Below, one piece after another: positions 59,517 to 64,000 of a stretch of DNA of 64,000 nt. The stretch is from Brevundimonas guildfordensis (lineage in GTDB: Bacteria; Pseudomonadota; Alphaproteobacteria; Caulobacterales; Caulobacteraceae): assembly GCF_014836405.1 (NCBI RefSeq), contig NZ_JACSQU010000001.1, positions 124,001-188,000 of the forward strand. The letters are read 5' to 3'. A program made the position numbers and the translations under genes. Positions within the stretch are counted from its first letter, which is position 1, and every line of letters begins with the position of its first letter. The notes under the pieces were generated by a model. That model saw only the letters and a program-made list of their open reading frames with translations, made no database searches and was not told where the DNA came from.

Positions 59517-59520
<4 letters not shown>
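58825..59520 (+). CDS. 5'-methylthioadenosine/S-adenosylhomocysteine nucleosidase family protein
   Basis: Predicted nucleosidase cleaving MTA/SAH, 231 aa. The conserved core fits the PNP/UDP family: [33 protein letters not shown], and catalytic residues in [13 protein letters not shown] (Glu), GVSDGK (Asp). C-terminal tail SALAPDSTS is short. ATG overlaps the RsmB-like stop by 4 bases, and its own stop overlaps the guaA ATG by 4 bases, so all three are translationally linked. Hydrolysis of SAH next to a methyltransferase suggests relief of product inhibition. Confidence 0.85.
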
Positions 59521-61079
<1,559 letters not shown>

Positions 61080-61154
61080 TTCAGGCCTTTCGGGAGCTTT
61101 CGGGATCGCTTGAGAAGAAGCCGATAAGTCGCTGACGTAAAAGTGAATTTTTAC

Positions 61155-61370: not shown

Positions 61371-62720
61371 ATGCTAACCGATGCAGAACTGAGGAATACG
61401 CGAGGAAAATCAAAGGCGTATAAAAAGACCGACAGAGACGGTCTTTACGTGCTCGTAACACCGTCGGGAGGCATCGCCTTCAAGTACGACTATCGCTTCA
61501 ACGGGCGGCGCGAGACGGTCACTTTCGGGTCCTACGGGCTGACAGGCCTGTCGCTCGCCAGGGCCCGGGAGAAGCTCATCGAAGCCAAGCGTATGATCGC
61601 CGACGGCGTGTCGCCAGCTCTGGAAAAGCAGCGCGCCAAAAGACGGCTCCGGGAGGCTCGCGACTTCGCCCATGTGGCGCAGAAGTGGATGGATGAGGCG
61701 CCCATGGCCGACAGCACGCGCAACATGCGGCGGTCCATCTTCAACAGGGAGGTTCTGCCGCAATGGTGCAACCGGCTGCTCACCGAGATCACGCCGGACG
61801 ACCTGCGCGCCCATTGCAAGTCCATCGCGGAGCGGGGCGCGCCCGCCACGGCCATCCACGTCCGGGACATCGTCAAGCAGATCTATGCCTGGGCCATCCT
61901 CCATGGCGAGAAGATCGATAATCCAGCCGACGGCGTGGCGCCCGCGGCGATCGCGCGCTTTCGGCCCCGCGACCGGTCGCTGTCTCCGTCTGAGATCCGG
62001 ATTATGCTCGGGCTGCTCGGGGAGGTCGCGACCCTTCCGACGATCCGTCTGGGTTTGAAGTTCATCCTGCTGAGCATGGTCCGCAAGAGCGAGCTGCAGG
62101 ATGGGACCTGGGACGAGGTGGACTTCGACAACGCGGTCTGGTCCATCCCTAAGGAACGGATGAAGCGGTCGCGCCCCCACAACGTCTATCTGTCGACCCA
62201 GATGCTCGACATCCTGATCGCTCTGAAGACCTGTTCTGGAAACTCCCGCTACATCCTGCCGTCGCGCTACGACGCCGACGCGCCCATGTCCCGGGCGACC
62301 TTCAACCGGGTGACCATGGCTATCGCGGAGCGCGCCCGGGAGCAGGACCTGCCGATCGAGCCCTTCACCGTTCACGACCTGCGGCGGACGGCTTCAACCC
62401 TGCTGCACGAGATGGGCTTCAACTCGGACTGGATCGAGAAGTGTCTCGCCCATGAAGAGCGGTCATCGCGGGGCGTCTACAACAAGGCGGAGTTCGAGGC
62501 GCAGCGGCGGCATATGGCCCAGGAATGGTCGAATGCCGTCGATGCCTGGGAAGCGGGCCGGTCATGGACCCCCGCGCTCTCTATCCGATCTAAGACGAAC
62601 CTCGCTTTCGCCCTGTTTCGTCTGGCGGGTGACAAGGAAGTCAGCGTCCGGACTGGCCGCGAGGACCACCTCGTCGGGCTCCATCGGCGAGAGACAGGCT
62701 GGCGTCCCGTTAAGGCGTGA
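61371..62720 (+). CDS. Tyrosine-type site-specific integrase (P4-like, DUF4102), C-terminus probably altered
   Basis: Catalyses integration/excision of a genomic island at guaA. DUF4102 N-terminal arm domain (~1-90, TDAELRNTRGKSKAY, RETVTFGSYGLTGLSLAR), core-binding SAM-like domain (~95-190) and catalytic domain. Catalytic Arg in SMVRKSELQDG, His-x-x-Arg in TVHDLRRTASTL, then LAHEERSS and nucleophilic Tyr in VYNKAEF. About 398 residues match the usual ~400; the last ~50 residues (after WEAGRSW) are antisense to the S9 peptidase gene and look like read-through past a junction. ATG at 61371 with GGGGAGAT upstream. Confidence 0.9.
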   Translation: MLTDAELRNTRGKSKAYKKTDRDGLYVLVTPSGGIAFKYDYRFNGRRETVTFGSYGLTGLSLARAREKLIEAKRMIADGVSPALEKQRAKRRLREARDFAHVAQKWMDEAPMADSTRNMRRSIFNREVLPQWCNRLLTEITPDDLRAHCKSIAERGAPATAIHVRDIVKQIYAWAILHGEKIDNPADGVAPAAIARFRPRDRSLSPSEIRIMLGLLGEVATLPTIRLGLKFILLSMVRKSELQDGTWDEVDFDNAVWSIPKERMKRSRPHNVYLSTQMLDILIALKTCSGNSRYILPSRYDADAPMSRATFNRVTMAIAERAREQDLPIEPFTVHDLRRTASTLLHEMGFNSDWIEKCLAHEERSSRGVYNKAEFEAQRRHMAQEWSNAVDAWEAGRSWTPALSIRSKTNLAFALFRLAGDKEVSVRTGREDHLVGLHRRETGWRPVKA

Positions 62721-64000
62721 CAGACAGGCCTGATCGACCAGGGTGCGAGCTCCCATATCCCGGGGCGAAGGGTTCCACCGCACTGGATTGCCCATATCGA
62801 CGATCTGCCCCTGGTCGCGAAGCTGCCCGCGAGCGAGCAGCGGACTGTCCGGCGTGAAGCCATAGACGCCGTCAGAGCGTTGGATGGCGGCGCGTCCGTT
62901 AAGCTCAACAATCCGTTCCGAGGGCTCCCGGACAGGAATAAGGTCAGAAGAGGCTGAACCGGGACTGACCCAGACCCGGGTGCCGTCAGCGGTCCGGGCC
63001 TGAACAATTGGCCGGCGGCCGTCCCAACTTGCAAGAGGAATGGCGACGCCGTCACAGGTGCGCTGAACCCAGGGGGTTAGAGGCCCCAGATCAAGCGCCC
63101 TGGCGCGTCCATTCGACGATACAGTCCAGAACCGCCCGTCCTTGTCGAAGTCGCCGCCAAGGGGACGGCCGAAGACGATGAAGGCGTCGGACGCGGGCGA
63201 CCAGGTCATGAGGTACATGGCCAGATCCTGGTCGGGCAGTGGAGCGCGCACGATGCCGCTGTCGAGCGCTACGAGGCTCAGACGTCCCCGGCGTATAGGG
63301 TCGCCGACCCGGACCGGGCGATCCGGTCGGGGTTGAAGATCTTCGGCGTCTTCCAGAAGTGCAGCGTGGCGGCCGTCAGGTGAGAGCCTGAGATCAAACC
63401 ACTCCCCGCGGGCCAGCATCCGCGGCGTCCTGGCGAGGATGTCCAGGACGACAAGGGTGGACGGCTCGGCCTGGGTTCGGGACTGCCGGGTCTCGCCGCT
63501 CGGGATGTAGACGGCGCTGGCGCCATGACCGCTGGCGGCCGTGCGCCACAACTGCTCCACGCGTTTCTGGACCTTGAACCCGACCCGCATGGCGACAGGC
63601 GGATCGTGACGCGGTCGGGCGATGAAGACTAGTTCAGTGGGAGATCGCCAGGCGACAGTTTGGCCGAACTGGATCATCTCCGGAGTGAACGGCGTCCAGA
63701 GGATTTCGCCGGTGGCGAGTGTAAGCACGCCGAGCTGAAGATCGTCGGCTGTCACGCGAAACACGACCATGCGGGCGCCGTCGGGCGAGAAGGGGCCCGA
63801 CAGGTGGCCGGCCTCGTGGCTGGGCGAGGCGAGGCGGATCGGCGCCTGATCCTGTGCGACGCGATGAATCTCCAGATCGGTCAACATGGCGCTGACCATG
63901 GTTGACAGATCATAGGACCCGGCTTGGTCATAGGGGCGCCGATGCTCGATCGCGACCCATTCCCCATCGGGACTGATGCGGGTCGTTCCGATGTCCTCGT
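62562..64000 (-). pseudogene. S9-family peptidase N-terminal beta-propeller, catalytic domain missing
   Basis: The frame is open to the window edge (64000) on the minus strand and continues upstream of the Met at 63899: ...DIGTTRISPDGEWVAIEH and RRPYDQAGSYDLSTM. Recognisable propeller repeats are FSPDGARMVVF, WRSPTELVFIAR, LSPDGRHAALLED and WSPASDAFIVFGRP, typical of prolyl oligopeptidase-like S9 proteins (including lasso-peptide isopeptidases). The frame stops at 62562 after LRSDRERGGP, just where the hydrolase domain (GxSxGG) should begin, and its last residues lie antisense to the integrase end. Truncated by the same junction that altered the integrase. Identity to Atxe2-type isopeptidases is only a possibility. 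Confidence 0.6.

Follow-up and report, generated by a model that had tools for sequence, protein, structure and literature searches.

How did two unrelated genes come to run head-on into each other behind guaA in Brevundimonas guildfordensis? The window analysed here is a stretch of 64,000 nucleotides, bases 124,001–188,000 of the 1.75-Mb contig C2 (genome 2.88 Mb, 10 contigs). After guaA it carries a tyrosine integrase ORF on the plus strand and a facing S9-type ORF on the minus strand, which overlap in antisense at 62562–62720. An earlier note on this DNA ascribed the arrangement to a deletion or rearrangement that had fused the end of the integrase with the inside of a peptidase gene, and supposed the lost segment to have been the body of a genomic island. 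We conclude that the join very probably marks a single large deletion, arisen by illegitimate recombination inside an integrative and conjugative element (ICE) inserted at the guaA 3' end.

Two altered genes behind guaA

The guaA gene (59517–61079, plus strand, from its ORF) encodes GMP synthase, and its 3' end is the insertion site of the island. Similarity to the locus stops at 61075–61086, the end of guaA, in all ten genus genomes chosen for comparison, of which eight have no integrase match and two (G002, G066) only a remote one. The match to Brevundimonas sp. MYb52 runs throughout the guaA locus and past the guaA end. An attL-like core, TCGAGTGGGAAT, occupies 61066–61077 on the plus strand; it contains GAGTGGGA, reported in PMC9376610 as the core of GIsul2. 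On the far side of the overlap, the S9 strand continues with genes for a TonB receptor of 985 aa, for a FecR-like protein and for an ECF sigma factor.

The integrase ORF (61371–62720, plus strand, 449 aa) encodes a site-specific integrase with the Pfam domains Phage_integrase (74 bits), Arm-DNA-bind_3 and Phage_int_M; its catalytic region aligns gap-free with relatives. The end of the protein is a different matter. After the VYN of the tyrosine region 81 residues follow here, compared with 49–53 in all 44 relatives examined (49 in 41 of them, 51 in one, 53 in two), and 42 of the 44 relatives end in FDP plus a short end. According to Pfam and the alignment, the native sequence stops at 62586, that is, at residue 405, and the last 44 residues, 406–449, are foreign and replace the usual 13. 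The foreign 3' extension (62587–62720, plus strand) makes the ORF overlong because the frame from 62587 onwards reads antisense through the peptidase gene, as the earlier note had observed. That note put the surplus at about 50 residues; the overlength stands, while its size shrinks to about 31 residues relative to the 418-aa relatives (in an alignment of 17 relatives, 16 have 418 aa and one 422 aa). The structure model of the integrase is poor (mean pLDDT 48.9), so no conclusion about the new tail is drawn from it.

The facing ORF (62562–64000, minus strand) encodes a protein of 513 aa; its start lies 103 bp outside the window, at window-equivalent 64103. It retains the propeller of an S9 peptidase and has lost the alpha/beta-hydrolase domain. 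The sequence is native to residue 505/506 and is followed by seven codons antisense to the integrase and a stop (62562–62585, minus strand), in accordance with the ten or so codons given before. Each of the 17 homologues aligned at least as far as query residue 504 has a further 287–337 residues, and the GHS-F/Y-GG motif is found in 12 of these 17. Among 30 S9 loci examined, 28 have frames of at least 764 aa; the exceptions are L060, which runs off its contig, and L064, with a closed frame of 484 aa. The latter (in genome G283) is possibly another, independently truncated copy. In the MYb52 homologue PF00326 (Peptidase_S9) covers residues 617–789, and the protein here stops at 513; it thus lacks the catalytic-serine alpha/beta-hydrolase domain that characterises the Atxe2 family. 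The score against the Atxe2-family lasso isopeptidase model NF033523 (cut-off 400) is 29.3 bits for the remnant and 87.3 bits for the intact MYb52 homologue. Since the protein is under the NCBIfam cut-off, we call it isopeptidase-like.

The truncated protein has no match among PDB sequences at E up to 1. For the intact MYb52 protein there are three, 8wt1 and two entries of AtxE2, and in each case the C-terminal part is what matches. The model of the remnant, folded without the first residue, has a mean pLDDT of 83.7; its strands extend up to model residue 505, and the tail is of low confidence. When this fold was compared with known structures, the best entries mixed S9 peptidases with unrelated propellers: 8wt1 has Z 16.1 (rmsd 6.9, 314 aligned residues) and human eIF2A, in third place, Z 15.3; the best 50 do not include AtxE2. 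The predicted structure thus supports a propeller, not a family.

Selection on the remnant was assessed from dN/dS. The pairwise ratios between this genome and MYb52 are 0.164 for the S9 remnant, 0.192 for guaA, 0.18 for FecR, 0.107 for the TonB receptor and 0.098 for both the integrase and the sigma factor. On this genome's branch the remnant has dN 0.034 and dS 0.324, a ratio of about 0.11 (one gene, no error estimate), and the ratios of the MYb52 and G307 branches, about 0.27 and about 0.15, are both higher. As amino-acid changes have not accumulated to excess in the remnant, the deletion looks recent, that is, young relative to the MYb52 split, or the remnant is still in use.

Might both genes then be natural forms, an integrase with a long tail and an S9 protein made up of the propeller alone, which evolved so and merely overlap? 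Neither frame is interrupted, a good fold is predicted for the propeller remnant, no relaxed selection is seen on its branch, and one of the 30 S9 homologues, L064, also has a short closed frame. However, on the two points that the earlier note had named as able to refute its reading, none of the 44 integrase relatives shares the C-terminus or the length, none of the 17 end-reaching S9 homologues shares the end of the remnant, and similarity changes from one gene to the other at a single position. We regard this explanation as refuted, with next to no probability left to it.

The join and the unjoined arrangement in relatives

The remaining question is how the two genes were brought together. 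Set against the integrase of G165, the closest one, the window sequence is similar through 62586 and unrelated from 62587; compared with two S9 genes (MYb52 and G307), similarity starts at 62585–62587. This places the join at 62584–62587, within the interval of about 62562–62600 where the two abnormalities had been thought to meet, and leaves zero to two bases common to both sides. So few shared bases speak against homologous recombination at this point, and, taken together with the likely att site 1.5 kb off, they make end-joining or replication slippage the likely mechanism.

A 1.7-kb query across the join matches 61 of 131 genus genomes, with two candidates scored per genome, and the match is in one piece only here. 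The join is known from the contig sequence of a single assembly. A chimeric contig that skips some 54 kb truly present in the cell would produce the same picture, and it would fit the absence of the join from all other genomes of the 131-genome search. Such an error requires something to mis-join, though, and at most two bases are common to both sides; a 2.9-kb query across the join has no second copy in this genome, its only other match being one of 66 bp at the probable far end of the island. Moreover, the searched parts of the missing segment (see below) are on no contig, and the assembly is rated 100% complete. Hence we consider an assembly error improbable and keep to a deletion.

The unjoined state is preserved in MYb52. 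There the two breakpoints face each other 53.6 kb apart (C1:105,014 to 158,641). Collinearity with this genome reaches C1:105,014, breaks off there and resumes over 158,641–165,400, at 82–85% DNA identity. This arrangement bears out the earlier proposal of a deletion or rearrangement between the integrase end and the peptidase interior. Altogether, ten genomes (MYb52, which is G102, and G073, G022, G222, G097, G243, G249, G305, G343 and G328) carry the integrase and S9 matches on a single contig, facing each other in the same way at a distance of 37–69 kb, as read from the match coordinates; G022 belongs to another genus of the same family. The arrangement is not universal: the best two matches in G307 are separated by 688 kb, and G228, G263, G267 and G294 have the integrase and S9 matches on different contigs.

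What was lost and what remains

The content of the missing segment can be read from MYb52. AlpA is encoded directly after the integrase. The conjugation module comprises VirB4 (TIGR00929, 798 bits against a cut-off of 643) and, by Pfam and NCBIfam, a relaxase, VirD4/TraG, and CagX, TrbI and T2SSE family proteins, the last three of which we take to be VirB9, VirB10 and VirB11. Towards the other end, a family search finds a lasso cluster context consisting of lasso B2 (78.6 bits, cut-off 33), an asparagine-synthase-family protein and the S9 gene, and the TonB, FecR and sigma genes next to them were identified by similarity to those of this genome. Here only TonB, the FecR-like protein and sigma are left of this context. 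These data support the reading of the lost segment as island body, with a conjugation module and lasso-peptide biosynthesis genes. As size and content are taken from a relative at 82–85% identity, the ancestral segment may have differed.

Two further features of the MYb52 segment were noticed by eye. An open frame at C1:154834–155112, between a GntR-like gene and lasso B2, may hold the lasso precursor. At C1:112–116 kb, a cytosine methyltransferase, a Vsr-like nuclease and a GHKL-type ATPase gene are clustered, possibly as defence genes on the conjugative island.

Is the segment really gone from this genome? Two 20-kb pieces of it, searched as DNA with 40 first-look candidates scored per genome, gave no match here; matches were found in MYb52, the source, and in G305, G307 and, partly, G165. 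For the piece with the conjugation genes, also unmatched here, they were in MYb52, G305 and G307. Queries with VirB4 and with the lasso cyclase, run on this genome alone and without a positive control of their own, gave no match either. For the lost S9 hydrolase domain, the genome holds only remote S9 relatives with at most 33% identity. The search for absence therefore covers 40 of the 53.6 kb as DNA and, in the other 13.6 kb, the lasso cyclase and the S9 hydrolase domain; the first 10 kb or so after the integrase (alpA and its neighbours) and lasso B2 lie outside it.

By itself the join fits a deletion and a translocation alike, and an inversion or translocation might have put the segment elsewhere in the genome without loss, the more so as about 13.6 of the 53.6 kb are outside the DNA search. 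Yet neither VirB4, nor the lasso cyclase, nor 40 kb of segment DNA was found in the genome, and the hydrolase domain was matched only remotely. Rearrangement without loss is thus largely refuted and retains a negligible chance.

The loss probably concerns only a part of the island, because cargo, and what is probably the far-end counterpart of the guaA 3' end, persist outside the window; this refines the earlier supposition about the island body. A second copy of the core TCGAGTGGGAAT is observed at C2:276,698, outside the window, with a terminator-like arm similar to the one that follows guaA. The arm is about 130 bp long, and the copy is 91.6 kb on from the first one. Judging by sequence, it may be attR, or it may belong to a tandem second element. 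With a core copy at this distance, much of the island probably remains, some 90 kb, mostly outside the window. Comparison with empty sites gave no boundary match for the right end, the sequence after guaA being different among the 10 genomes. Nor do the downstream genes of these genomes match anything past the second core; their single hit, of 41% over 56 residues, falls elsewhere in the window.

The cargo past the sigma factor (C2:193.9k–235k) looks by eye like aromatic-compound catabolism, with Rieske-type oxygenases, dehydrogenases, a TonB receptor and a P450-like protein. Downstream of the island in MYb52, at C1:181676–181897, there is a degenerate C-terminal integrase fragment with an internal TAG, which suggests stacked islands at guaA.

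The history of the locus is best read as follows. The ancestor would have resembled the MYb52 element, with guaA, the integrase, alpA and other genes, a relaxase, VirB/VirD4-type secretion and lasso biosynthesis genes, followed on the opposite strand by the isopeptidase-like gene, the TonB receptor, the FecR-like anti-sigma factor and the ECF sigma factor. A break, rejoined with 0–2 bp of homology, would have fused integrase codon 406 to the propeller end of the peptidase gene and taken out about 54 kb, if the size was as in MYb52. A single event and end-joining are what we infer; two successive events would leave the same scar. The element would then be incapable of self-transfer and of lasso-peptide production. 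Its peptidase remnant would be catalytically dead, the activity of its integrase is uncertain, and the sigma/anti-sigma/TonB arm would have been kept. One might go further and imagine that the strain gave up lasso production and the spread of the element but keeps this arm for import, and the dead, well-folding propeller as a binding protein, so as to sense or scavenge the lasso peptides of neighbours; we think this very improbable.

Comparison with known systems

The locus offers a snapshot of a mobile element losing its capacity to spread, a step of decay resolved almost to the base, in which the transfer and peptide-synthesis modules were lost and cargo and integrase kept. It also calls for caution in annotation: the integrase of 449 aa and the "peptidase" of 513 aa are not novel protein forms, both being products of fusion.

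The element resembles guaA islands of the GIsul2 type in being inserted at the guaA 3' end with the core GAGTGGGA. As GIsul2 is described in PMC9376610, the two also have in common a tyrosine-type integrase and an alpA gene, the latter adjoining the integrase in MYb52, and they differ in cargo and size.

An isopeptidase-like S9 gene with genes for a TonB receptor, an anti-sigma and a sigma factor after it is also the layout of isopeptidase-containing lasso-peptide clusters such as astexin/AtxE2, presented in PMC9266682, and the lasso B2 and cyclase-like genes that adjoin S9 in MYb52 agree with it as well. The differences are that this genome has lost the biosynthetic half and the hydrolase domain, and that even the intact MYb52 protein reaches 87 bits against the NCBIfam cut-off of 400. 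PMC7549694 reports a lasso peptide of Brevundimonas diminuta, brevunsin. A literature search found lasso peptides and ICEs paired in no title or abstract; in the Brevundimonas group a lasso-peptide locus is carried on a guaA-inserted conjugative island.

Decayed ICEs and CIMEs (cis-mobilizable elements), as treated in PMC5704250, are similar in that the element is ICE-like, has lost its transfer genes and has probable attachment cores at both ends. However, CIMEs are defined there as having lost the integration genes too, whereas here the integrase is kept, albeit with an altered end, so that the element falls short of a CIME in this respect. The event, well resolved here, exemplifies a known process and is ordinary in kind.
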